DNA of 64,000 nucleotides from Halosegnis marinus (GCF_029338355.1 NZ_CP119802.1:1922001-1986000); one strand, 5' to 3'. Shown: positions 10,820 to 23,253, numbered from the stretch's first letter. Notes: generated by a model from the sequence alone, not told the origin. Program-made: numbers and translations.

Positions 10820-11695
10820 TCAGCCCGCGCGGTACGCCTCGACCGCCGCGCGGTACCCCTCGCGGTAGGTCGGGTACCGGAGGTCGTAGCCGGTCTCGCG
10901 GAGCAGGTCGTTCGCGACGCGCTTGCTGGTCAGGACCCGCCGTTCGGCCGCTTCCGAGAGGTCGCCCTCGGCCAGCCGTTCCCGCTTCGAGCGCTTCTCG
11001 GGCCGGGGGACGCCGCACTCGTCGGCGAGCCAGTCCGCGAAGGCGTGTTTGTCGGCCGGCTCGTCGTCACAGACGTTCACGACCGGCGCGTCCGCGTCGC
11101 CGAGCAGATGGGCGACCGCGCCCGCGGCGTCGTCGCGGTGGACCATGTTCAGGTAGCCGGCCGTTACCGGCCCCTCCAGGTACCGCTCCAGCCGGTAGCG
11201 GTCGGGACCGTAGAGCCCGGCGAAGCGCGCGACGCGTCCGTCGATATCGCGCTCGGCCGCGTACTCGGTCGCGAGCCGTTCCGCCTCCGCGAGGACGGCG
11301 GTCTTCTCCGTCGTCGGCTCGATGGGCGTCGACTCGTCGACCCAGTCGCCGTCGTGGTCGCCGTAGACGCCCGTCGAGGAGGTGTAGACGAGCCGCTCCG
11401 GGGGCGAGTCGCGGTCGGCGAACACGTCGATAGCCGTCCGCAACCCCTCGACGTACACCTCTCGCGCGGCGTCGGCGCCGCGCCCGCCCGAGGAAGCGGC
11501 GAAGACGATGGCGTCGGCGTCCGGGACCGCCGCGAGGTCGTCGGGTTCGGTCACGTCCGCCGCCACGGCGTCCGCGCCCGTCGCGCGCACCGCGTCGAGG
11601 TCCGAGAGGCGCACGCCCGTCACCTCGTGGTCGCCCGACAGCTGCCGGGCGAGTTCGAGGCCGACGTAGCCGCAGCCGAGTATCGCGACCCGCAT
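10820..11695 (-). CDS. NAD(P)-dependent epimerase/dehydratase-like SDR protein
   Basis: 291 residues. N-terminal Rossmann motif GCGYVGLELA at about 7-16, VYTSSTGVYGDH in the middle, and a C-terminal substrate domain. The usual YxxxK catalytic pair is not visible: at that position the sequence reads PTTEKTAVLAEAE, with Thr where Tyr is expected. It may therefore be an atypical extended SDR or a non-catalytic NAD(P) sensor. Its ATG overlaps the stop of the upstream DUF5791-type gene (ATGA). Confidence 0.85.
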   Translation of the reverse strand: MRVAILGCGYVGLELARQLSGDHEVTGVRLSDLDAVRATGADAVAADVTEPDDLAAVPDADAIVFAASSGGRGADAAREVYVEGLRTAIDVFADRDSPPERLVYTSSTGVYGDHDGDWVDESTPIEPTTEKTAVLAEAERLATEYAAERDIDGRVARFAGLYGPDRYRLERYLEGPVTAGYLNMVHRDDAAGAVAHLLGDADAPVVNVCDDEPADKHAFADWLADECGVPRPEKRSKRERLAEGDLSEAAERRVLTSKRVANDLLRETGYDLRYPTYREGYRAAVEAYRAG

Positions 11696-12120
11696 CAGCG
11701 GACCCGCGCGCGGATGGTCGCGTGTAACAGGGCGAACTCCCGAAGCGTCATCGGGAACCGGCCCTCTATCTTCGACTGCACCTCGCGGGCTTCGAGGTCG
11801 CCGCCCGCCTCCGCGGCCAGCGCCTCCACGTCGAGGACGGCCTGCGACATCCCCATCATCAGCGCGTCGCGCGACAGCAGGACGATGCTCTCGGCGTCGT
11901 CGTCCTCCGCGGCCGCCAGCAGCGCAGCGGCTTCCTCCAGCGTCAGTTCGGGCGCGTCGCCGGCCGCGACCGCCGCGACGGTCTCACGGTCGAGGTCCGT
12001 CCGCGCCGCGACGGCGTCGACCCCCGCGGATTCGACGGCGTCGGCGAGTTCGGCCGCGAGCGCCGCGTACAGTTCCTCCGGCGTGTGCTCGCCGGGGTCT
12101 GAGACCAGTTCGTGGAACAC
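11695..12120 (-). CDS. DUF5791-type haloarchaeal protein
   Basis: 141 residues, acidic and helical, starting with GTG at VFHELVSDPGEHTPEEL. This start is followed by the sequence I recall for haloarchaeal DUF5791. The middle resembles a helix-turn-helix-like unit (DRETVAAVAAGDAPELTLEEAAALLA), but no binding function is established. The stop overlaps the SDR start (ATGA), so the two genes are coupled. Confidence 0.75.
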   Translation of the reverse strand: MFHELVSDPGEHTPEELYAALAAELADAVESAGVDAVAARTDLDRETVAAVAAGDAPELTLEEAAALLAAAEDDDAESIVLLSRDALMMGMSQAVLDVEALAAEAGGDLEAREVQSKIEGRFPMTLREFALLHATIRARVR

Positions 12121-12160: not shown

Positions 12161-12370
12161 TCAGTAGAAGCCCGTCGCCGTCCACGCGCCGCGTATCTCA
12201 CGTTCCGCGACCTCGGTTCCGTGCTCCTCGACGAACCGTTCGGCCGTCCGCTCGTCGCAGCCGAGCACTTCGTCGGCCATCAGCGCCGCGACGAGGCGGT
12301 CGTGCGGGCGCGGCGTCACCTCGCGGTCGGCGTCGAACAGGTCGTCGCGGTTGGGTTCGGGGACGGTCAC
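12161..12370 (-). CDS. small uncharacterised protein
   Basis: 69 residues, MTVPEPNRDDLFDADREV at the N-terminus, no hydrophobic segment and no metal-binding cysteine pair. It looks like an acidic, helical, soluble protein. It sits 33 bases after the pilus-like operon and 40 bases before the DUF5791-type gene, so it may be carried on the same transcript. The codon pattern (G or C at third positions) supports coding. Function unknown. Confidence 0.65.
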   Translation of the reverse strand: MTVPEPNRDDLFDADREVTPRPHDRLVAALMADEVLGCDERTAERFVEEHGTEVAEREIRGAWTATGFY

Positions 12371-12403
12371 GGTCGGCGTACGGTCGCCGGCGACAAACGC
12401 CTT

Positions 12404-15370
12404 TCACCAGCCGGCAGAGCGCTCGTCGGCGTTCCCGTCCGTGTCGCCGACGCCCTGTCCGCCGGGCGGCACGACGACCACGACGGCCGTCTCGACCGAG
12501 AGGTCGACCTCGCTCGCGCGGCCCGCGTGCTCCGCGTCCCCGTCCCCGTCCCAGTCGATGCCGACCGCGCCCCCGTCGCGGACGTACGCGAGCGTCCGGC
12601 CGGGGAAACCCTCGCGCGACCGCACGACGAAGCGGTCGTACGCGCCGCGCGCCTCGACGGTCCAGACGTTCGTGGTCGCGTACCACTGGCTCGGCAGCGG
12701 GGTGACGGGGAGCCCCGACGGGACGCGGGCCAGCGAGCGTCCGAGGCGCCGTTCGACCCGCTCCGTCGCCACGGTCGCGGTTCGGTTCGCGGCCCGCGCG
12801 GCGGCCCGCGTCGCCGCCTCCGTCGCGAGCCGGCGTGTCGCCGTCACGCCGGCGTTCACCGCGGACTGGGGAACCCCGTCACCGCTCGTCGCCGCGGCAC
12901 GGAGGGCGAGCCGGAGCCGGTCCCGCGCCTCGGTTTCGGCGACCGTCTCGGGGTACCGTTCGGCCGCGACACCGGCGACGGCAGCCGCAGCCGAGCCGTT
13001 CGCCAGCGCGAGCGCGCGGGTCGCCGGGGTCGTCCAGCGGTCGAGTCCGGCGGCGACGACGGCGCGCCGGTCATCGGAACTGCTCCCGACCCCCGCCTCG
13101 GCGAGCCGGTGTCGCAGCGCCTCCCGTCGGCGGTCGACGGCCGCGCGGACGGCGTCGCGGATCCGCTCGCGCCGCGCGCTCGCCCGCTCGTCGTCCGTCT
13201 CGGCGGCCACTCCCTCGGCGCCCCGGAGCGCCCGTGCCGCCGACCGCAGGCGGACGCGCCGCTCGCCGAACAGTTCCCCGACGACGCTGTCCGCGACGTC
13301 GCCGTAGGGAACCGTGAACAGGTTCGTGTTCCGGGCCGCGAGCGGGACGGTCGAGCCGTTCCCACGCGCGTCCGTCGCCGCGCGGTCGACCCGCGACAAC
13401 GAGAGATACGCCGGGGCGCCCTCGACGGCGACCCGCTCGCCCGACACCGTTCCGTTCGCCCCCGAACTCACTTCCCCTCGGGCGTCGAGCAGTGCCCCGA
13501 GCCGGTCCCGGGAGAGTCCGTGGTCGGCGAGCACCGACGCGAAACGGTCGCCCGCGTCCCGCCGGCGGTCGGCACGGCGGTCGAGCGCGGACAGCACCGC
13601 GTCGAGGTACGCGGCCCGCGCGGCGACGCGGGCGCGGTCCGCCACGCCGTCGTAGGTCGGCGGCGCGTCGAGCAGCGCCGCGCGCCGCTCGCGGACCGCC
13701 GCGGCGAGTGCGGCCGCCGGGTTCGCGTCGTAGGTCCCGACCGCGCCGCGCTCGACCGCGACGGAGACGTTTCGGACGCGCTCGCGCAGGCCGACGAGGT
13801 CGCGGTACACCCACGCCCGTAGCTCGTCCGGCGGTTCGCCGGACAGCGTCGTCCGGTTCGGCCCGAGCGTCCCGGCGACCGCGCGGCGAGCGACGGCGTC
13901 GGTACCGCCGCGCTCCGCTACGAGTCGGTCCGTGGCGCGCTCGCCGACGGCGCCGAGGTTCGGGCCGTCGAGGACGCCGCCGCGCTCGTGAACGGGCTCG
14001 ATCTCCCGGACGGGTGCCGGGCCGCCGTCGTGGCGACCGACGACGGCGACGCGGACCCGTTCGCGGGTCGTCACGACCTCGGTGGTGCGGGCGGTTCGGT
14101 TCCCGCGTCGCCAGCGCCGGACGACGGTCCGGCGCTTTGTCACCTCGCGGGCCGCCGAGGAGACGACGTGTCGGGGGGACGCGGCTCCGATGTCCGTCGC
14201 GTTCGCGCTCGCCACCGACAGCCCGGTCGTCACGTTCCGGGCGACGAACGTCCAGTTCTCGCCGTCGGGCGCGGCGCGCCCCGTCCGCGTCGTCCCGAGG
14301 GTCGTCACGGCCACGCGTCGCTCAGCCCGGACGCGGTAGGTCGCGGCTATCGCGGCCGCGAGGCCCCCGTCGACGAACCTGCGGAACGCCCGGTCGGCGG
14401 TCGCGTTCACGCCGACCGCGAGGGTGTCCTCCGGGCCGACCGCCGGCGTGTCGGCGGCTCTCGTCGGGTCGAGCGTCGAGCCGGGGACCGCGCCGTCCGC
14501 GGCCCGAATCAGGGCGGTCGACTCCGCGCCCGAGGCGCCCGCGCCGGCGAGCAGGTCCGCGCCCGCCGCCCGGGTCGCGGCGGTTCGGGTCGCCCGGACC
14601 GCGGCGTCGTCGGCCGTGCCGAAGACCGCGCGCTGTTCGGCGAGCAGCGCCCCGTTCGTCGCCACCGCGACGTGGCGGTTGCCGACGACGTTGGCGATCG
14701 GCGCGCCGCCGTACTGTGCTACCCCGCGAGTCCACGCCATCGCGTAGAGGCGGGCGGTCGCGCGGCGCGCCAGCCCCGGTGCGGTCGCGTCGGCGTCGAG
14801 CCGTCGGTCGAACCGAACCGTCCGCTCGTGGAGCGCGAGCACGGACGAGGCGACCTCGACCGTCGGCGAGACGCGCACGCGTTCGACCGTTCGGCCGTCG
14901 CGGGTCGCGACGAGCGTGACGTTCTCGACGGTCACGCGGAGGGCGTCCGCCTCGTCTACCGCTTCCACGCTCGTCCGTGCCAGCACGGCCCGGAGGTCGG
15001 CGGCCGTCGAGAGTCGGGGGAGCGACGGGGCGGCGCGGACCCCCTGTGCCGTCGTCCGGTCCAGCCGGTCGCGGAGCGCGAGGTAGGCCCGCAGTTCGAG
15101 CGACGCGCGGAACGGGTCGCCGGTCGCGGCGAGCGCCCGCCCGAGCGTCGTGTTCGCGGTCGCGACGACCGGGTTCGCCGCGGCCTCGCGGGCCGCCGTC
15201 CGCGTCGCGTCGCGGAGGTCGCCGCCGAGCGCGACGCGGGCCTCCTCCAGCGCGGCCTCGGTGTCCGGCTCCGTCACCGTCACGCCCCCGAGCGCGCCGG
15301 ACATCGTCGCGCTCCCGGCGAGCAGGAGGACGCCGACGAGGGCGAACGGGACGCGCGCGCGCTCGTTCAC
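12404..15370 (-). CDS. giant pilin-like surface protein (DUF7286-type)
   Basis: 988 residues. A single N-terminal hydrophobic helix (VPFALVGVLLLAGSATMSG) follows the short basic stretch VNERAR, an arrangement like archaeal type IV pilin signal peptides, where cleavage would fall after RA. The rest, about 960 residues, has no further membrane segment and should lie outside the cell. It is Ala- and Arg-rich with many NxT/NxS sites, possible N-glycosylation sequons. I recall it as the haloarchaeal DUF7286 family. GTG start in a GTGA overlap with the DUF7284-type gene; a GTG three codons upstream is possible but less likely. Last gene of the pilus-like operon. Confidence 0.85.
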   Translation of the reverse strand: MNERARVPFALVGVLLLAGSATMSGALGGVTVTEPDTEAALEEARVALGGDLRDATRTAAREAAANPVVATANTTLGRALAATGDPFRASLELRAYLALRDRLDRTTAQGVRAAPSLPRLSTAADLRAVLARTSVEAVDEADALRVTVENVTLVATRDGRTVERVRVSPTVEVASSVLALHERTVRFDRRLDADATAPGLARRATARLYAMAWTRGVAQYGGAPIANVVGNRHVAVATNGALLAEQRAVFGTADDAAVRATRTAATRAAGADLLAGAGASGAESTALIRAADGAVPGSTLDPTRAADTPAVGPEDTLAVGVNATADRAFRRFVDGGLAAAIAATYRVRAERRVAVTTLGTTRTGRAAPDGENWTFVARNVTTGLSVASANATDIGAASPRHVVSSAAREVTKRRTVVRRWRRGNRTARTTEVVTTRERVRVAVVGRHDGGPAPVREIEPVHERGGVLDGPNLGAVGERATDRLVAERGGTDAVARRAVAGTLGPNRTTLSGEPPDELRAWVYRDLVGLRERVRNVSVAVERGAVGTYDANPAAALAAAVRERRAALLDAPPTYDGVADRARVAARAAYLDAVLSALDRRADRRRDAGDRFASVLADHGLSRDRLGALLDARGEVSSGANGTVSGERVAVEGAPAYLSLSRVDRAATDARGNGSTVPLAARNTNLFTVPYGDVADSVVGELFGERRVRLRSAARALRGAEGVAAETDDERASARRERIRDAVRAAVDRRREALRHRLAEAGVGSSSDDRRAVVAAGLDRWTTPATRALALANGSAAAAVAGVAAERYPETVAETEARDRLRLALRAAATSGDGVPQSAVNAGVTATRRLATEAATRAAARAANRTATVATERVERRLGRSLARVPSGLPVTPLPSQWYATTNVWTVEARGAYDRFVVRSREGFPGRTLAYVRDGGAVGIDWDGDGDAEHAGRASEVDLSVETAVVVVVPPGGQGVGDTDGNADERSAGW

Positions 15371-16227
15371 GCCGACCACCGCCGGACGACGATCCGGACC
15401 TCGCCGGCGCGGACGGCACGCGCGGCCGCGGCCGGGGAGTCGAACGCCGCCCGTACTCGTCGTTCGTACCCCTCACGGAGCGCGCGCCGGAGCCGTTCGT
15501 TCGCCGCCGCGGCGTCCCCGCGCTCGATTGCCGCCGTGGTGTCCGCGCCGAACAGTCGGTCGGCCCGCGCGTAGCGGCGCGCGGCGAGCCGGTCGGTCGG
15601 GTAGTCCGCGGCCAGCGCGTTCGTCATCCCCTCGCGGGGGAACAGCACCCGGGTCGTCGCGTTCGCGAGGACCCGGGCGACGCCGGCGTAGCCCGAGCGG
15701 TTCGCGGCGGCGAGCGCGCGTGCCCTGGCCCCACCCGCGGCCGTCTCGACCCGCAGCACCCGACTCGCCACGGACGCGTCCCGCGGCGGCTCCGGGCCGG
15801 CAGCGAGGCGTCCCCCGACGTCGGCGCCCTCGTACGGCTGCCACACCGTCAGGACCCGTGTCCGCGTCCCGGTGGCGTTCGCGACGGCCGCGGCGACGGC
15901 ACGCTCGTACCCGTCGCTCGTCCGGGCGAGTTCGGTCCCGCCGACGGTCGTGTTCCGCACCGCGCCGCGCGCGAGCAGGCCCGCGAGCCGACCGTGTGCG
16001 TGCCGGTCGAACGTCTCCCCGACGCGGGGGAACCGCTCCGGTGCCCCGGCCGCGCCGGGCGCGAGCGAGTAGTTCACCGAGACCGACACCCGCGAGACGA
16101 CCGTCGCGGACGGCTCCGCGTCCGGCGCGGGCGGCGTTCCGTGTGGCGCCGCGAGCGTCGTCGCCGCGGCCGAGACGAGCAACAGAAACAGCGCCGCGTC
16201 GAGCACGGTACTGACGCCGCGGCTCAC
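15367..16227 (-). CDS. pilin-like protein (DUF7284-type)
   Basis: 286 residues. The N-terminus VSRGVSTVLDAALFLLLVSAAA has the RG-V-S then hydrophobic helix pattern of haloarchaeal type IV prepilins, where PibD-type peptidases cut after RG. The remaining 260 residues are a soluble ectodomain with several NxT/NxS sites. The GTG start overlaps the previous stop (GTGA), and the stop overlaps the next start in the same way. The coupling on both sides suggests a fixed stoichiometric role in the machine. A longer upstream reading frame would sit wholly inside neighbouring genes. Confidence 0.82.
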   Translation of the reverse strand: MSRGVSTVLDAALFLLLVSAAATTLAAPHGTPPAPDAEPSATVVSRVSVSVNYSLAPGAAGAPERFPRVGETFDRHAHGRLAGLLARGAVRNTTVGGTELARTSDGYERAVAAAVANATGTRTRVLTVWQPYEGADVGGRLAAGPEPPRDASVASRVLRVETAAGGARARALAAANRSGYAGVARVLANATTRVLFPREGMTNALAADYPTDRLAARRYARADRLFGADTTAAIERGDAAAANERLRRALREGYERRVRAAFDSPAAAARAVRAGEVRIVVRRWSA

Positions 16228-16592
16228 CAGACGCTCACCCGGAGTCGCCCGGGGACGACGCGGCCGGGCCCGACGCGAACGGGCACGCGGCGTCGGGCGC
16301 TCGCCGCGACCCGTGGCGGGGTCGGTCCCCGCGTCCACGAGCGGTTCCCGACGGCGAGCGAGACGTTCGTTCCCTCCGGGAGCGGAATCGAATCAACCCG
16401 AGCGGGCGGGACGACGCCGGCCGGCGCGAGGTCGTCCGCGACCGCGTCGAGTCGCGCTTCCGGACTCGGCCCCTCCCGCGGTAGCACGTCGTCGACGACG
16501 CCGGCGTACGCCGAGAGCGCGAGACAGACCGCCGCGACGGCGACGAGCGCCGCCAGCGGCTCGGCCTGCGCCCTATCCGACGAGCGTGACAT
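16224..16592 (-). CDS. pilin-like protein (DUF7285-type)
   Basis: 122 residues. MSRSSDRAQAEPLAALVAVA has a class III signal peptide look: a short charged leader, RA-Q-A at the expected cleavage point, E five residues after the Arg, then a hydrophobic helix. The ectodomain is about 85 residues. The size and shape are those of a minor pilin. The ATG lies 20 bases inside the end of the DUF7283-type gene, and the stop overlaps the DUF7284-type start. Confidence 0.82.
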   Translation of the reverse strand: MSRSSDRAQAEPLAALVAVAAVCLALSAYAGVVDDVLPREGPSPEARLDAVADDLAPAGVVPPARVDSIPLPEGTNVSLAVGNRSWTRGPTPPRVAASARRRVPVRVGPGRVVPGRLRVSVW

Positions 16593-17043
16593 CGACACCT
16601 CCCCACGTGACGCGGCGGACGCGGAGCCGGTCGGGCGCGGCTCGCCACCCGGGGTCGCCGGTTCGAGCGCCGTGTGCGACCACGGCGAACTCGGTCGGGT
16701 CGGCGAACACGTCACCGGGCGGCTCGCCGGCGAGCACCGCCGCGAGCGGGCCGTCGTCGCGGACGGGCGTGACGGGTCCGTACTCGAAGTCCGCGTGTGC
16801 CGTGCCGTCCGGCCCGCGGAGCGAGACGCCGCGGGGCGTGAGCCGTATCCGGTCGGCCCGGTCGAGCGATGCCGTTTCGCTGCCCGCGTACGCGCTCGCG
16901 GCGAGCGAGTCGACCGTCCGAGCCGCGCCCGCGGCGTCCGGCGGCGGGGCGGTCGGGAGGCCGGCAGCGACCCCGAGCGCGCCCGCGGCGACGAGGCTCG
17001 CGCCGAGCCACGCGTACCAACCGTCGATTGGTGCGTCGAACAC
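16573..17043 (-). CDS. pilin-like membrane protein (DUF7283-type)
   Basis: 156 residues with GTG start (VFDAPIDGWYAWLG), one N-terminal hydrophobic helix (WLGASLVAAGALGVAAGL) and a soluble ectodomain. The prepilin cleavage motif is less clear than in its two neighbours, so it may be a plain N-terminally anchored subunit. The N-terminus matches what I recall of haloarchaeal DUF7283. It starts 32 bases after the GspF-like gene, the largest gap in the operon. Confidence 0.8.
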   Translation of the reverse strand: MFDAPIDGWYAWLGASLVAAGALGVAAGLPTAPPPDAAGAARTVDSLAASAYAGSETASLDRADRIRLTPRGVSLRGPDGTAHADFEYGPVTPVRDDGPLAAVLAGEPPGDVFADPTEFAVVAHGARTGDPGWRAAPDRLRVRRVTWGGVDVTLVG

Positions 17044-17075
17044 GGGGGCGGTGGCCGCGCTCCGGTACAAAAAGC

Positions 17076-18761
17076 TCAGGCGACCAGCCCCCCGGCGACG
17101 ACGGCCGCGAGGTAGGTCGCCGTCGCCGCGAGCAGCGCCAGTCCGACCCGGTAGCCGACGAGCGCGCGGTCGAAGCCGCGCTCCAGGCCGGTCGCGAGCG
17201 CCGTGAGCAGGACGGCGAGGAGGAGGACGTAGCCGCCGACCGCGACCGCGAGCGGGCCCTGTGGGAGCGCCTCGCCGAACTCGCTTCCGCCGACTCGACC
17301 GGCCAGCGCGACGGTGACGCCGCCGACGAGCGGACCGAACACGGCCGCGGTGTTGCCTATCGTCCCCGTCGCGTGGCGCACCGAGCGGCGGGCCTCCCGC
17401 TCGACGCGCGCGAGGTCGGCGAGGTGTTCGCCCGCGGCGACGAGTGCGGGGCCCGCCGGCCGGCCCTCACGCGCCGCGTCGGCGAACAGGCGCGCCGCGT
17501 CCGCGACCCGGCGGCTCGGGAGGTCGCCGACGGCCCCGTGTTCGCCGAGCAGCGAGTCGCGAACGCCGACACCGAGTGCCGAACCGCGGTCGGCCGCCTC
17601 CGCGAGCAGGGCCGCGGCGGGCGTGTCCGACTCCGCGCCCGCGGCGACGAGCGCCGTCTCGACCGGGTCGCCGTCCGCGACCCGGCGGCCGACGGCGTAC
17701 AGCGCGTCCGGCAGTCCCTCCTCGACGGCGCGCACCTCTGCGCGTACCTCGCGGTACGGACGGAACCGGAACACGAGCGCGGTGCCGACGCCGAACCCGG
17801 CCGCGGCCACCGGCGGCGTCCACGCCGGGAGCAGTCGCGGGGCGACGACCCACGCGCAGGCCGCGACCGCGACGCCCGCGGCGAGGGCCCCCCACGGGGC
17901 GTCGGGCACGTCCGGGTGGTCGCGCGGGACCGGCGTCGCCGGGAACGCGACGGGACGGTTCGCCACCAGCCAGGCCGACGCGACGAGCAGGCCCAGCGGG
18001 AGCGCGAGGTCGTAGACGGCCACGACGACCGGAACCGACACCGGCAGTCCGGCGACACGGGTCGCGGGGAGGGCCGCGACGAACGCCAACGGCAGGAGGA
18101 CGCCGAACGCGTACACCGCGGTCACCGGGCCGCGCAGCGCCGCCGCGTCCCCCGCCGCCCGCTCGCGTACCCCGGCCAACACCGCGTCGAGCGCGCGGTC
18201 GATGCCCCGGTCGCGCTCGTCCGCCGGCGCCTCGGCGGCGCTTTCGAGGAGCCGAAGCCCCCGCCGCAGGGGCGGGAAGCGGTCGCCCCACCGGTCGAGG
18301 AAGTCGCCGAAGCCCGCGTCCCCGGTGCCCCGTGCCCGCCGAACGGACGCCGCGAGCCCCCGGTCGAGCGGTCCCGCGGGGTCACGAGCGGCGAAGGCGG
18401 CCGCGGCCTCCCGGGTCGGCGTCACGCGGAGCCGCATCGCGGCCCGGCAGACGAGCCACGGCGCGGTGCCGAGCGCGCGCCGTCGGAGTGCGCCCGCCGC
18501 GAGTTTCGGTCCGCGGAGCGCGACCTCGCGCCCGCCGAGAGCAAGGGCGACGGCGACGAGGAGCACGGCGGGCCGGAGACGGGTCGGCGCGAGCGCGGTC
18601 GCGAGCAGACCCACGCCGCCGACCGTGACCGCCAGCCCGTCCGCCGCGCGACGGTAGGTCGCGGTGTCCGACCGACCGAGCAGCCGGAGCGCGACCGCGA
18701 GGTCGGCAGTCGGCTCGGGTTCGGCCGGTGCGAGCCGTGCGAGCGCGCCGAGGAGGCTCAC
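17076..18761 (-). CDS. type II secretion/type IV pilus GspF-like membrane platform protein
   Basis: 561 residues. Two helical cytoplasmic domains alternate with clusters of membrane segments: about 45-80, then 215-270, 295-345 and 470-560. This matches archaeal PilC/TadC-type proteins with two T2SF domains, which form the inner-membrane platform turned by the GspE-like ATPase. The second T2SF domain is clearest (EEGLPDALYAVGRRVADGDP, then VRDSLLGEHG). GTG start in a GTGA junction with the ATPase gene, as expected for an ATPase-platform pair. Confidence 0.85.
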   Translation of the reverse strand: MSLLGALARLAPAEPEPTADLAVALRLLGRSDTATYRRAADGLAVTVGGVGLLATALAPTRLRPAVLLVAVALALGGREVALRGPKLAAGALRRRALGTAPWLVCRAAMRLRVTPTREAAAAFAARDPAGPLDRGLAASVRRARGTGDAGFGDFLDRWGDRFPPLRRGLRLLESAAEAPADERDRGIDRALDAVLAGVRERAAGDAAALRGPVTAVYAFGVLLPLAFVAALPATRVAGLPVSVPVVVAVYDLALPLGLLVASAWLVANRPVAFPATPVPRDHPDVPDAPWGALAAGVAVAACAWVVAPRLLPAWTPPVAAAGFGVGTALVFRFRPYREVRAEVRAVEEGLPDALYAVGRRVADGDPVETALVAAGAESDTPAAALLAEAADRGSALGVGVRDSLLGEHGAVGDLPSRRVADAARLFADAAREGRPAGPALVAAGEHLADLARVEREARRSVRHATGTIGNTAAVFGPLVGGVTVALAGRVGGSEFGEALPQGPLAVAVGGYVLLLAVLLTALATGLERGFDRALVGYRVGLALLAATATYLAAVVAGGLVA

Positions 18762-20533
18762 GCGAACGCCTCCCGTCGGGCGTCGAGGGCGCGGCGCACG
18801 TCGGCGTACTGCTCGCCGGGCGCGGCGAGCGTCGCGACCGTCGCGCTGTTGCCGCGTTCGATGCGGCCGGTCGCCGCGAGGCCGTCGCCGTCGCGCTCGA
18901 ACAGCGGGGCGAACGACGGCTCCTCGCGGCCGACGACCTCGTGGACGCCGGCGACGCCCCTCTCCGCGTCGCTCCGGTCGAGCGTGACGACGAGGTCCGT
19001 GTCGGCGAACGCCGACGGCGCGACGCCGAGGTCGGCGACGACCCGCTCGCGGACGGCCTCGGGGCCGTCCCCGTGGACCGTCCCGAGCGTCGCGCCGCCC
19101 GCGCCGACGCGCATCGCCTCGTAGAGCGCCTCGGCCTCGGCCCCCCGGACCTCGCCGACGACGAGCGCCCCCTCGCCGAGGCGGAGCGCGGCCCGGAGCG
19201 CCTCGGTCGGGCCGACCCCGTCGCCGTCGCGGGCGACCCGGAGCCGCTGGCAGTCGCGGCCGGCGGCCCGGAGCGCGTCGACGGGGAGCTCCGGGGTGTC
19301 CTCCACGACGACCGTCCGGGTCCCGGCCGCGAGCTCGAACAGGAGCGCGCCGAGCGTCGTCGTCTTGCCGACGCCGCGACCGCCCGCGAGCAGTACCGCC
19401 GCGCCGCGCTCGACCGCGACGGAAAGCAGGCCGGCGACGGCCGGGGTGAGGGTACCGTTCGCCACGAGGTCCGCGAGGCGGAACGGGTCGCCGTCGTGGG
19501 CGCGGAACGCGAACCCGTGGCCGTCGCTCACGGGGTCGGTGACGCCGGCGACCCGGAGCTCGCGGTCGCCGGACGCGACCGCGGCGTCGAGCGTCGAGTC
19601 GGCCCGCGAGAACGCGCGACCGCTCTCACGGCGGAAGCGGGAGGCGAGGGCCGCCGCGCCCGCGGGCGTGAGGTGGAGGTTCGACCGGACGGCCACGTCA
19701 GCGCGTTCCAGCCGGAGGGGGCCGTCGCCGACCGGCGCCGAGGCGTAGGCGTCGGAGACGGCTGGGTCGGCGAAGACGTCGTCGAGGACACCCAGCCCCC
19801 GGGTGTGCTTGTCGAGGACGGCGGTCAGCGTCTCCACGGGGTCGTCCGGGTCGGCGACGGCGCGGACGGCCCTCCCGGCCGCCCGCTCCCCGGCGAGCGC
19901 GTTCGCGGCGAGGTGGTCGGCGGCGGCCGCGAGGGTGGCCGTCGCGTCGGTGTCGAGCGTCAGTTCGACCGGCGTGAGGTGATACGTCGGGAGCGGGTCG
20001 TCGCCGCGCTCGTACAGGCGGACGGTCGCCCCCGTGTCGAGGTCGTAGCGGTCGGCCAGCCGGGCGTCCGGCGGCGGCCGGGCGACCACGCGCTCCTCGC
20101 CGACGGTCGGGGCGACGCGCGGCCGGAGCAGGGCGTCGTAGTCGCCCCCGGTCGCGGCCTCCGCCAGTCCCGTCACGGCCGCGAGCCGCGCGACGGCTCC
20201 CGCCCGCCCGGTCGCGACCCGGGCCGCGTCGAGGGGGTCGCGCTCCGTCCGCGCGGCGAGCGCCTCGTCGTAGAAGGCGACGGCCTCGGCGAAGCGCCCG
20301 GCCGCCACGAGCAGGGCGGCCGCGCCGTCCTCGTAGGCGCGTTCGAGGCCGTCCGCGCGGCTGTGGACGCTTTCGGCGTCGCGGTCCCGGAGCGCGGCGA
20401 CGGCCGTCGCGCGGCAGTCCGGGGCCGCGGCCAGTCGTCCCGAACCGGGGCAGTCGGTCGCGTCGAGGCGGAGCGCGTCTCCGTCGAATCGGGGTTCACA
20501 CCGGCAGTCTGCGGTCGAGCGGAGTCCGAACAC
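18758..20533 (-). CDS. GspE/PilB/VirB11-like secretion ATPase
   Basis: 591 residues. The catalytic half has Walker A GGRGVGKTT near 383-391, an Asp-box VVVEDTPELPVD, Walker B ALVVGEVRGAEAEALYEAM and a His-box GTVHGDGPEAVRERV. It drives assembly or secretion by the adjacent GspF-like platform. The N-terminus carries four cysteines, C10, C12, C28 and C40 (DCRC, DCPG, DCRA), which could bind zinc; most PilB proteins do not have this. GTG start 38 bases inside the end of the DUF7311-type gene. Confidence 0.92.
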   Translation of the reverse strand: MFGLRSTADCRCEPRFDGDALRLDATDCPGSGRLAAAPDCRATAVAALRDRDAESVHSRADGLERAYEDGAAALLVAAGRFAEAVAFYDEALAARTERDPLDAARVATGRAGAVARLAAVTGLAEAATGGDYDALLRPRVAPTVGEERVVARPPPDARLADRYDLDTGATVRLYERGDDPLPTYHLTPVELTLDTDATATLAAAADHLAANALAGERAAGRAVRAVADPDDPVETLTAVLDKHTRGLGVLDDVFADPAVSDAYASAPVGDGPLRLERADVAVRSNLHLTPAGAAALASRFRRESGRAFSRADSTLDAAVASGDRELRVAGVTDPVSDGHGFAFRAHDGDPFRLADLVANGTLTPAVAGLLSVAVERGAAVLLAGGRGVGKTTTLGALLFELAAGTRTVVVEDTPELPVDALRAAGRDCQRLRVARDGDGVGPTEALRAALRLGEGALVVGEVRGAEAEALYEAMRVGAGGATLGTVHGDGPEAVRERVVADLGVAPSAFADTDLVVTLDRSDAERGVAGVHEVVGREEPSFAPLFERDGDGLAATGRIERGNSATVATLAAPGEQYADVRRALDARREAFA

Positions 20534-20969
20534 TGGGCGTCGTGGTCCCGTTTCCGGACTTGAACCTACGGACCAGGAGCAGATCCTCGCCGTCGCGGGC
20601 GACCAGCGAGAGCCGCAGCCGGTGGCGGCCGGGCTCGCGGAGCCACAGCGGCCCGTCGAACGACAGGTCCGTCTCGACGCGGTTCCGTCCGTCGCGCTCC
20701 CACGCGAGGGACTCGCCGCGCGGGCCGACGCCCATGCCGAGGTCCGTCTCCCGGGGCACGCGAACGACGACCACGAGGCTCGCGCCCGCCGTCCCGGGCG
20801 GCGCGGGGTCGTTCCGCTCGGCGAAGCGGGCGACCCGCTCGCGGAGGTCGGTCAGTTCGTCGCGCGCGAGGCCGTCAGCCCTCCCCGCCCGCGCGTCCTC
20901 GACCGCCGGGAGGGCGTACCCGACGAGCGCGGCCGCGAGCAGGACGGCGAGGACGACCCGGACTACCAC
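20496..20969 (-). CDS. small anchored protein of the pilus-like operon (DUF7311-type)
   Basis: 157 residues. A hydrophobic N-terminal helix (VVRVVLAVLLAAALVGYAL) is followed by a soluble beta-rich domain (LVVVVRVPRETDLG, HRLRLSLVARDGEDLLLV). It is probably anchored in the membrane with the domain outside. I recall it as haloarchaeal DUF7311. The GTG start overlaps the previous gene by seven bases, and the gene end overlaps the ATPase start by 38 bases. Confidence 0.8.
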   Translation of the reverse strand: MVVRVVLAVLLAAALVGYALPAVEDARAGRADGLARDELTDLRERVARFAERNDPAPPGTAGASLVVVVRVPRETDLGMGVGPRGESLAWERDGRNRVETDLSFDGPLWLREPGRHRLRLSLVARDGEDLLLVRRFKSGNGTTTPSVRTPLDRRLPV

Positions 20970-21325
20970 AGGTCGCGCAGCCGCTCCCCGAGGCTCGGTT
21001 CCCCCTCGGACTCGACCGGGACCGACCGCTCGCGGGGGCGGGGCGTCTCCTCGTCCAGTCGTGCCTCGGTCTCGCGGGCGACGGCGAGCGCGCGCTGGGC
21101 GACCTGCGCCGTCTCGCGGTCGATTCGCTCCGCGTTCCCGACGTGACCGCGCACGGTGGCCACGTCCCCCTCGGCGTCGGCGAGCCGGTCCTCCATCGCG
21201 TCCAGCCGCTCGGCGAGGGCGTCGAGGCGGCGCTCGACCGCCGCGGCGTTCGAGAGGTCGGCCGGGCCGCGGTCGTCGTCGGTGATGGTCCGCTCGACGG
21301 CGTCGAGGCGGTCTTCGAGGGTCAC
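20963..21325 (-). CDS. coiled-coil protein, first gene of the pilus-like operon (DUF7310-type)
   Basis: 120 residues, GTG start at VTLEDRLDAVERTI. The central region is a heptad-rich coiled coil (ERRLDALAERLDAMEDRLA), followed by an acidic, Pro-rich tail ending LGERLRDLW. It is cytoplasmic, without membrane segments, and perhaps a scaffold or regulator of the ATPase. The start fits a TATA-like element 25 bases upstream (21350-21355). A longer frame with an upstream ATG would cross that promoter. Confidence 0.8.
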   Translation of the reverse strand: MTLEDRLDAVERTITDDDRGPADLSNAAAVERRLDALAERLDAMEDRLADAEGDVATVRGHVGNAERIDRETAQVAQRALAVARETEARLDEETPRPRERSVPVESEGEPSLGERLRDLW

Positions 21326-21375: not shown

Positions 21376-22122
21376 ATGTCCGGTCTCGTTCACGGGCCGA
21401 CGATGCCCTCCCCGCCGAGCGGTGACGAACGGACGCGACGGCTGCTGGGGGCGCTCGCGCTCGTCGCCGGACTCGCGCTCGTGCTCAACGCGACCGTCGT
21501 CGGCGCGTTCGCCGTCGGCGAGCCGGTGTACCGGTACGACACGTTGGCCGTGGAGACCGAGGGCGGCATCGGGTTCGGCGGGGGCTCGCCCGTGGATACC
21601 GTGCCCGACGACGTGGTCGGCCTCGACTGCCTGTACGACTCCGCACACACGCGGCTGTGCGAGACGGAGCGGTGGCTGCTCGACCGGAGCGCGAACGACA
21701 CCGTGACGGTCACGGTCGAGTCGCCGGAGTCCGTCTACGTCGAGGAGCCGGCCCCGCGGTTCGCGCTCCACCCGAGCGGTATCTACGAGCGCACCCGGAC
21801 CCTCGTCGAGGAGAACGGGACGCGGACCGCCCGGCTGACGCTCGAACGGGTGGCGACGCGCGAGGCGGTCGCGGCGGTCGCCGCCGACCCCGACGAGCTT
21901 CCGCGCGCGGCCGAACGGGCGGTCGAGGACGGGCCGGTCACGACGCGCGAGCGGCTCGGGGTGAACGGGCAGGTGGTCGTGACGGAGAACGGCTTCGGGA
22001 TACTCGTCGCCGACCGCGCGCGGCCGGCCCGGCCGGGGCGTGCGACCGGGTTCGCGGCCGCACAACTGCTCGCCGCGGCCGGGCTGTTCGCGGCCGGGAG
22101 CCGGCCGTTCCGGCGGGGCTGA
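21376..22122 (+). CDS. two-helix membrane protein next to the pilus-like operon
   Basis: 248 residues. A membrane helix at about 24-46 (LLGALALVAGLALVLNATVVGAF), an ectodomain of about 150 residues with Cys in LDCLYDSAHTRLCETE (a likely disulfide), and a C-terminal helix (AAQLLAAAGLFAAGS) ending RPFRRG. NDT and NGT sites could be glycosylated. No known domain is recognised. An internal ATG at 21403 is an alternative start. Divergence from the operon across 50 bases suggests shared control. Confidence 0.75.
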   Translation: MSGLVHGPTMPSPPSGDERTRRLLGALALVAGLALVLNATVVGAFAVGEPVYRYDTLAVETEGGIGFGGGSPVDTVPDDVVGLDCLYDSAHTRLCETERWLLDRSANDTVTVTVESPESVYVEEPAPRFALHPSGIYERTRTLVEENGTRTARLTLERVATREAVAAVAADPDELPRAAERAVEDGPVTTRERLGVNGQVVVTENGFGILVADRARPARPGRATGFAAAQLLAAAGLFAAGSRPFRRG

Positions 22123-22179: not shown

Positions 22180-23253
22180 ATGAAGGTCGCCCTAATCGGC
22201 GTCGGGCAGGCCGGCGGCAAACTGGCCGAATCCCTGGCGTCACACGACCTCGCGCGGTCGTCGGTGACCGGCACGCTGGCCGTCAACACCGCCCGCGCGG
22301 ACCTCCAACCCCTCCACATCGACACCCTGCTCGTCGGCGAGGCGCAGGTGAACGGCCACGGCGTCGGCGGCGACAACGAACTCGGCGCGCGCGTGATGGA
22401 CGCCGACGCGACGGAGGTGATGGAGGCCCTCTCGGGCCGGGTCACCTCCGAGTGCGACGCGATACTGCTCGTCGCGGGGCTCGGCGGCGGCACCGGGTCG
22501 GGCGGCGCGCCCGTGCTCGCGCGGGAACTCTCCGAGGTGTACGACATCCCCGTCTACGCGCTCGGCGTCCTCCCCGGCCGGAACGAGGGCGCGCTGTATC
22601 AGAAGAACGCGGGCCGCTCGCTGAAGACGCTCGCCCGGGAGGCCGACTCGGTGATTCTGGTCGACAACGACGCGTGGCGCGCCGCGGGCGAGTCGATGGA
22701 CGAGGGGTTCGCGGCGGTGAACGACCGCATCGCACAGCGGGTCGGTCTGCTGCTCGCCGCCGGCGAGTACGAGGGCCGCGACGTGGCCGCCGAGTCCGTC
22801 GTAGACTCCTCGGAGGTCATCAACACGCTCCGCGAGGGGTCGCTCGCGGCCATCGGCTACGCGTCGGCGGCGTCGAGCGAGGACGCCGCGGAGAACCTCA
22901 ACGCCGTCACCTCGGTGGCGCGCAACGCCCTCCTGACGGGGACGAGCCTGCCGGACGCGACGGAGGCGTCGAGCGCCCTCCTCGTCGTCGCGGGCGACCC
23001 CGACCGCATCAGCCGGAAGGGCGTCGAGTCGGCCCGGTCGTGGCTCGGCGAGGAGACGGGGACGATGCAGGTGCGCGGCGGCGACATGCCGCTCGACTCC
23101 GACCGCCTCGCCGCGCTCGTCCTGCTGGGCGGCGTGGAGCGGTCGCCGCGGGTGCGGGAGTTCTTCGAGCGGGCCGGCGCGGCCGCGGAGGAGGTCGAGC
23201 GCGCGGACGCCACGGAATCGCTCGTCAGCGACGACCTCGACGGCCTGCTGTAG
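22180..23253 (+). CDS. cetZ: CetZ-family tubulin-like GTPase
   Basis: 357 residues. The nucleotide-binding start MKVALIGVGQAGGKLAES and the tubulin signature GGGTGSGGAP near 103-112 are present. NTARADLQPLHID and LGVLPGRNEGALYQKNA are typical of archaeal CetZ rather than FtsZ. CetZ proteins polymerise with GTP and control cell shape and motility in haloarchaea. Several paralogues usually exist, and which one this is cannot be decided here. It is slightly short at the C-terminus compared with CetZ1. A TATA-like GAATAC lies about 26 bases before the ATG. Confidence 0.92.
   Translation: MKVALIGVGQAGGKLAESLASHDLARSSVTGTLAVNTARADLQPLHIDTLLVGEAQVNGHGVGGDNELGARVMDADATEVMEALSGRVTSECDAILLVAGLGGGTGSGGAPVLARELSEVYDIPVYALGVLPGRNEGALYQKNAGRSLKTLAREADSVILVDNDAWRAAGESMDEGFAAVNDRIAQRVGLLLAAGEYEGRDVAAESVVDSSEVINTLREGSLAAIGYASAASSEDAAENLNAVTSVARNALLTGTSLPDATEASSALLVVAGDPDRISRKGVESARSWLGEETGTMQVRGGDMPLDSDRLAALVLLGGVERSPRVREFFERAGAAAEEVERADATESLVSDDLDGLL

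Follow-up and report, generated by a model that had tools for sequence, protein, structure and literature searches.

What kind of machine is encoded by a haloarchaeal operon that combines a type IV pilus-like ATPase and membrane platform with a giant pilin-like protein? The operon in question occupies positions 12404-21325, on the minus strand, of a 64,000-nucleotide stretch of the Halosegnis marinus genome (NZ_CP119802.1:1922001-1986000; hereafter the window). An initial annotation, made from this DNA alone, regarded it as a type IV filament-like machine that is distinct from known systems and specific to haloarchaea. Our analysis upholds the first part of this view, but neither of the other two. 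The operon is a member of the already catalogued pilB2/C2 (pil-2) regulon beside cetZ2, in ATPase subclade 4F, rather than a new system, and its function is predicted from sequence. We think it probable that this type IV filament system operates as proposed below, most likely building a pilus or a pseudopilus that has a giant minor pilin at its tip.

Organization of the operon

The open reading frame coordinates hold as first given, with the gene order, 5′ to 3′, DUF7310, DUF7311, PilB ATPase, PilC/TadC platform, DUF7283, DUF7285, DUF7284, and DUF7286. The close packing reported earlier was confirmed: six of the seven junctions overlap, by 7 nucleotides at DUF7310/DUF7311 (GTG start at 20969, read from the DNA), 38 at DUF7311/ATPase, and 20 at DUF7283/DUF7285, and through a GTGA at ATPase/TadC, DUF7285/DUF7284, and DUF7284/DUF7286; the sole gap, of 32 nucleotides, separates TadC from DUF7283. 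Six of the eight proteins matched curated Pfam families (DUF7310, DUF7311, DUF7283, DUF7285, DUF7284, and DUF7286), across the greater part of each sequence, including the coiled coil and the small anchored protein that had been noticed ahead of the ATPase. Given these matches, and because the same eight-gene order is kept in most of 41 other loci, the arrangement is not due to chance. In some genomes, the motor genes and the pilin genes of the operon are separated from each other. As first noted, no prepilin peptidase is encoded within the operon; the genome has one A24 peptidase, at C1:1443058. No secretin family of Pfam or NCBIfam was matched by any of the eight proteins, and a plasmid search with DUF7286 returned no match. 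A defence system was also considered and ruled out, with no PADLOC match.

Identity of the operon with published systems

The ATPase is GspE-like, as had been proposed, scoring 55 bits against T2SSE, above the cut-off, with PDB matches to GspE2, CpaF, and FlaI and an invariant G-K-T. In an alignment of relatives, C12 of its N-terminus is invariant and C28 is conserved in >90%, and a C-x-C is found at the N-terminus of every sampled haloarchaeal member. In a tree for which the program warned of long branches meeting, the operon ATPase formed a clade at 100/100 with three methanogen ATPases carrying C-x2-C N-terminal pairs, and the other eight ATPases of the same genome grouped apart. Aligned by hhalign to the genome's other TadC proteins, the platform family gave a probability of 67% (E = 5e-5). 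Beyond the operon, the genome carries eight more ATPase genes of the type IV filament type (G000:C1, loci L100-L106), two of which are ~6 kilobases apart (L103); numerous filament systems may therefore exist in this organism.

Makarova, Koonin and Albers (2016; PMC4858521) characterize subclade 4F by a Cys-rich ATPase N-terminus, a halobacterial coiled coil, an FtsZ-like neighbour, and an occurrence in halobacteria and Methanocella-type methanogens, all of which are shared by the present system. Since the well-supported clade with Cys-rich methanogen ATPases, the coiled coil, and the FtsZ-like neighbour match this description, we assign the operon ATPase to 4F, a placement judged by described features and not by the reference sequences of that study. 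DUF7310 probably corresponds to arCOG07564, the coiled coil of 4F. Legerme and Pohlschroder assigned PilB2 of Haloferax volcanii to subclade 4C; despite this placement, the predicted operon features that we tested fit 4F.

Brown and Duggin (2023; PMC9856176) report that in Haloferacales and Halobacteriales a type IV regulon with pilB2/C2 adjoins cetZ2 and is flanked by epimerase, phosphodiesterase, and exopolyphosphate-related genes. The operon agrees with this regulon in the pilB2-type ATPase, pilC2, the CetZ2 neighbour, and the epimerase, phosphodiesterase, DHH, and probable arCOG04674 flanks. Their "seven predicted pilins", a count that includes PilB2 and PilC2, equal the ATPase, the platform, and the five N-anchored proteins of the operon; a giant pilin is not discussed in the text considered. 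Likewise, the pil-2 locus of Halobacterium salinarum R1 is co-transcribed and comprises pilB2 (arCOG01818), pilC2, and three predicted prepilins, as here, and pilB2 mRNA was increased 8.5-fold in adherent cells (Losensky et al., 2015; PMC4292770). Matched by description rather than by sequence, this is very likely the same locus as the operon. The same authors considered pil-2 to be haloarchaea-restricted and possibly of bacterial origin, whereas our profile searches reached methanogen relatives. A literature search retrieved no paper naming these DUFs or the H. volcanii locus tags that we guessed.

Among the uncharacterised surface machines of haloarchaea, the pilB2/C2 cluster ranks with the most widespread, and it lies beside a tubulin homologue. 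To its description, the present analysis adds a giant pilin lacking Glu5 that accompanies a single motor clade in haloarchaea as well as in methanogens, a conserved order of the pilin module within which the ATPase/TadC pair of haloarchaea lies, and evidence for several losses in place. Genetic work in H. volcanii thereby gains a clear target.

Table 1. Features of the operon and its surroundings, with positions counted from the first nucleotide of the window (↓, cleavage position of the class III-like site).
Feature	Length (amino acids)	Position	Strand	Evidence and remarks
NAD-dependent epimerase/dehydratase, conserved flank, arCOG03095 type		10820..11695	-	PF01370; in 24/61 loci
DUF5791, conserved flank		11695..12120	-	Pfam PF19104, 144.8 bits; in 25/61 loci
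DUF7286, giant class III pilin-like protein	988	12404..15370	-	ERA↓RVPFALVGVLLL; Pfam PF23957, 1017 bits over 2-988/1000
DUF7284, class III pilin-like protein	286	15367..16227	-	SRG↓VSTVLDAALFLLL; Pfam PF23955, 252 bits
DUF7285, small class III pilin-like protein	122	16224..16592	-	DRA↓QAEPLAALVAV; Pfam PF23956, 101 bits
DUF7283, N-anchored protein	156	16573..17043	-	No class III site; Pfam PF23954, 173.9 bits
PilC2/TadC-like membrane platform	561	17076..18761	-	~6-7 hydrophobic segments; protein itself without Pfam match
PilB2-type assembly ATPase	591	18758..20533	-	Walker A GRGVGKTT; Cys-rich N-terminus; T2SSE E = 6e-15
DUF7311, N-anchored protein	157	20496..20969	-	No class III site; Pfam PF23993, 91.5 bits
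DUF7310, coiled-coil protein	120	20963..21325	-	Pfam PF23991, 69.8 bits over 3-83; in 30/41 loci
Membrane protein without known family, between operon and cetZ2	248	21376..22122	+	No Pfam match; no relative in 60 other loci; outside the conserved set
CetZ2, tubulin-family gene, divergent neighbour		22180..23253	+	CetZ_C and Tubulin; 455 bits to 4B45, 304 to 4B46

Co-inheritance of the gene set

We surveyed 145 Halobacteria genomes for five of the families. DUF7286 was present in 111, DUF7284 in 106, and DUF7283, DUF7285, and DUF7311 in 107 each; all five were found in 105 genomes and none in 33. The genes were not scattered or missing independently of each other across haloarchaea, the exceptions being nearly all decayed loci. 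Scars or stop codons in four genomes (G125, G067, G012, and G056), as well as in Hbt. salinarum R1 and NRC-1, could suggest a decaying, largely non-functional locus that is kept by chance. We give this explanation hardly any credence, as the joint presence of the five families extends across most haloarchaeal families, the operon is intact in the window, and its DUF7286 is 65% identical over the full length to that of a same-genus relative.

The association of the giant protein with the motor extends beyond haloarchaea. Among 247 Halobacteriota genomes, the 4F ATPase (search cut-off 1e-60; all reported matches had E below 1e-180) and DUF7286 were each found in 63, with both in 60, each alone in three, and neither in 181 (phi coefficient 0.94). 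Outside Halobacteria, both were present in 27 genomes, one alone in two and the other alone in three, and neither in 172. Because they are inherited together without physical clustering, there is good evidence that the 4F ATPase and DUF7286 act jointly.

Prepilin-like proteins and the candidate tip

Four pilin-like subunits had been proposed behind the platform. All four proteins contain a single N-terminal hydrophobic helix, and one is indeed a giant, but only three have class III-like sites, i.e., a K/R-G/A pair before the hydrophobic stretch. The RA-R-V, RA-Q-A, and RG-V-S motifs first pointed out are present, and the sites are conserved in 41/41 loci for DUF7286, 36/39 for DUF7285 (typical start RGQTEP), and 33/40 for DUF7284 (typical start R(A/G)(V/I)STV); none was found in the 38 DUF7283 relatives. 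At loci L043, L044, L045, L046, L047, L061, and L079, DUF7284 lacks such a site and begins straight at the hydrophobic helix. Judged by these N-termini, DUF7285, DUF7284, and DUF7286 appear prepilin-like, and DUF7283 and DUF7311 do not.

In each of the 41 haloarchaeal loci, DUF7286 begins with R-(A/G)↓x-(V/I)-P-F/L; P8 and F9 are invariant in a 19-row alignment extending to methanogens; its position +5 is not Glu. The C-terminal ~110 residues are best conserved, and divergent-type members lack ~200 residues before that part. Essential minor pilins form a tip complex whose capping subunit lacks Glu5 (review, PMC10191384). With its invariably present class III site and no Glu5, as in tip-capping pilins, DUF7286 is a candidate for the filament tip. 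Some genomes (among them G058 and G141) have more than one DUF7286 gene, and G058 has both a full-length and a divergent type. In comparisons with solved structures, DUF7286 matched only designed helical-repeat proteins (E of 0.1-0.2), which were rejected as kin.

The tip complexes of bacterial Tad (type IVc) pili and of type IVa pili and type II secretion systems (PilHIJK and GspHIJK) likewise combine minor pilins with a large tip subunit lacking Glu5, and the operon ATPase resembles TadA/CpaF; in contrast, no homology of DUF7286 to these complexes was detected in Pfam, and the operon has no secretin. DUF7286 is approximately three times the size of GspK. An alternative reading is a type II secretion-like pseudopilus, in which a short piston pushes specific exoproteins through or past the S-layer and DUF7286 recognises the cargo. 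The operon encodes a mostly minor-pilin-like set with no obvious major pilin, and the equivalent tip complex of type II secretion binds effectors (PMC10191384). We nevertheless consider such a secretion machine unlikely: besides the missing secretin, archaea do not have the outer membrane that type II secretion crosses, the loci share no consistent linkage to a gene for a cargo, and published expression goes with adherent growth.

A further question is which protein would form the shaft. Makarova et al. (PMC4858521) assign to 4F a major pilin of its own from the PilA family (arCOG02981 or arCOG10216), usually encoded by a stand-alone gene; none was identified in this operon, and the genome was not searched for arCOG02981. 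An adhesion pilus with a shaft of PilA-family pilins encoded elsewhere, for which the operon supplies motor, platform, and tip only, is a possible but tentative sub-case of the filament reading. The PilB3-C3 pair of H. volcanii assembles pilins encoded in trans, PilB/C pairs can share pilin sets, and Methanocella-like genomes have a small pilin after the 4F TadC with no counterpart detected in the operon. On the other hand, DUF7285, with its 122 residues, could form the shaft on its own.

Proposed mechanism

The motor, the platform, the coiled coil, the three prepilin-like proteins of class III, and the two N-anchored proteins that lack such a site are co-inherited and almost always colinear. 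In the filament system that we favour, the genome's single A24 peptidase would cleave DUF7285, DUF7284, and DUF7286; these would form an initiating complex with DUF7286 capping the tip and its conserved C-terminal domain outside. A pilus or short pseudopilus would then grow as the ATPase and TadC extract more pilins, either DUF7285 or one encoded outside the operon. DUF7311 and DUF7283 would remain in the membrane as base parts, and DUF7310 would work at the cytoplasmic face. The machine may be positioned by CetZ2, and its likeliest use would be contact with surfaces or other cells.

Several observations weigh against this model. The co-occurrence p-values (1e-49 and 5e-28 for the two comparisons above) are inflated by relatedness, as the statistics ignore shared ancestry. 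The platform falls below the Pfam cut-off for T2SSF, to which a relative aligned at E = 0.05, the class III site is missing in 7/40 DUF7284 relatives, and an obvious major pilin is lacking within the operon. AlphaFold models of DUF7286 and DUF7284, built from two-row alignments with the relative at L079, reached a predicted local distance difference test score of only ~35, so that the N-terminus and size of DUF7286 are all that speaks for its tip role. The link to CetZ2 is positional, and it is absent from 8/26 full-length-type and 15/15 divergent-type loci. In Hbt. salinarum R1, moreover, pilC2 is interrupted by an in-frame stop and pilB2 is expressed at a low level (PMC4292770), and our literature search found no report of a filament from this system or of a deletion mutant.

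Relatives in methanogens

The proposed restriction to haloarchaea does not hold, as methanogens carry homologues of DUF7286, DUF7284, DUF7285, DUF7311, and the ATPase/platform pair. Two families among these non-Halobacteria genomes presumably resemble Methanocellaceae and Methanosarcinaceae, and M. acetivorans was matched as a control. Outside Halobacteria, DUF7286 relatives measure ~820-1400 residues. In the Methanocella-like loci L081-L083, pilin 1 and then pilin 2 are followed by DUF7285, DUF7284, DUF7286, and a secreted protein, and in L081 a divergent, weakly DUF7310-like coiled coil (E = 0.006) lies ahead of this module. Pilin 1 aligned to DUF7311 with an hhalign probability of 96% (E = 2e-9), compared to 26% for two of the other comparisons and <2% for the rest. 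Pilin 2 is in the position of DUF7283, with weak similarity (probability 25%, E = 7.5e-4); the methanogen pilin behind the 4F TadC was also tried as a DUF7283 relative and showed no similarity. The ATPase/TadC pair of these genomes is at a separate locus from the pilin module. The haloarchaeal operon thus reads like a methanogen-type pilin module with the motor pair between DUF7311 and DUF7283, with no order of age implied.

Methanogen pilin 1 has a class III-like start (e.g., DDDSG↓ADFLP) that is absent from haloarchaeal DUF7311. A bolder proposal, to which we assign a rather low probability, is that DUF7311 and perhaps DUF7283 are ancestral pilins whose cleavage sites disappeared in haloarchaea and that are now fixed base parts, the platform having recruited former subunits, within a CetZ2-guided or -anchored filament that ends in a ~1000-residue pilin lacking Glu5.

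One 4F motor locus of a Methanocella-like genome includes, next to one another (L141:11956-14097), genes for a HerA/DUF87 ATPase, for an A24 prepilin peptidase, and for a class III relative of DUF7311. The proximity of the 4F motor to a HerA/DUF87-type ATPase gene in two Methanocella-like genomes might point to a pilus for DNA uptake or cell-cell exchange. This use is very improbable, given that HerA is not in the haloarchaeal operon and that H. volcanii mating is unaffected by pibD deletion (PMC7749143). In Methanosarcina-like and related genomes (L084:14086-19801 and L089), tandem stand-alone C-terminal domains of DUF7286 alternate with a small secreted protein family.

Genomic neighborhood and loss at the cetZ2 site

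The divergent neighbour of the operon scored higher against the H. volcanii structure 4B45, identified as CetZ2 by Brown and Duggin (PMC9856176), than against 4B46, given there as CetZ1. A cetZ gene is nearby in 18/26 full-length-type loci. No cetZ was found within the stretches examined around the divergent operon type (L064-L078), which is spread across families and may have moved. On the other side of the operon, DUF5791 probably corresponds to arCOG04674 in the published surroundings of cetZ2, with arCOG numbers assigned by description and not by sequence, and the window also holds a DHH protein and a phosphodiesterase in the published flank positions.

We read the cetZ2 locus in 14 operon-less genomes. 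In eight of these, cetZ2 adjoins DUF5791 with a gap of roughly 120-250 base pairs; in one more, the two are ~200 base pairs apart and the epimerase is farther away. At four operon-less loci (L093, L094, L095, and L096), the interval at the cetZ2 site contains fragments of DUF7310, DUF7311, or DUF7286, and other genomes of the same genera have the gene at its whole length. These four are losses in place, and the operon has been lost repeatedly at the cetZ2 site. A mobile element or recent acquisition, as suggested by Brown and Duggin (PMC9856176), is therefore not the whole story.

Two minor features of the window were also recorded. A 57-residue open reading frame without family (12198-12371, minus strand) lies between DUF7286 and DUF5791, with no relative in 60 other loci. 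The guanine-plus-cytosine content of the operon region, at 76-79%, is extreme for an archaeon and exceeds the 68-76% of most of the remaining window.

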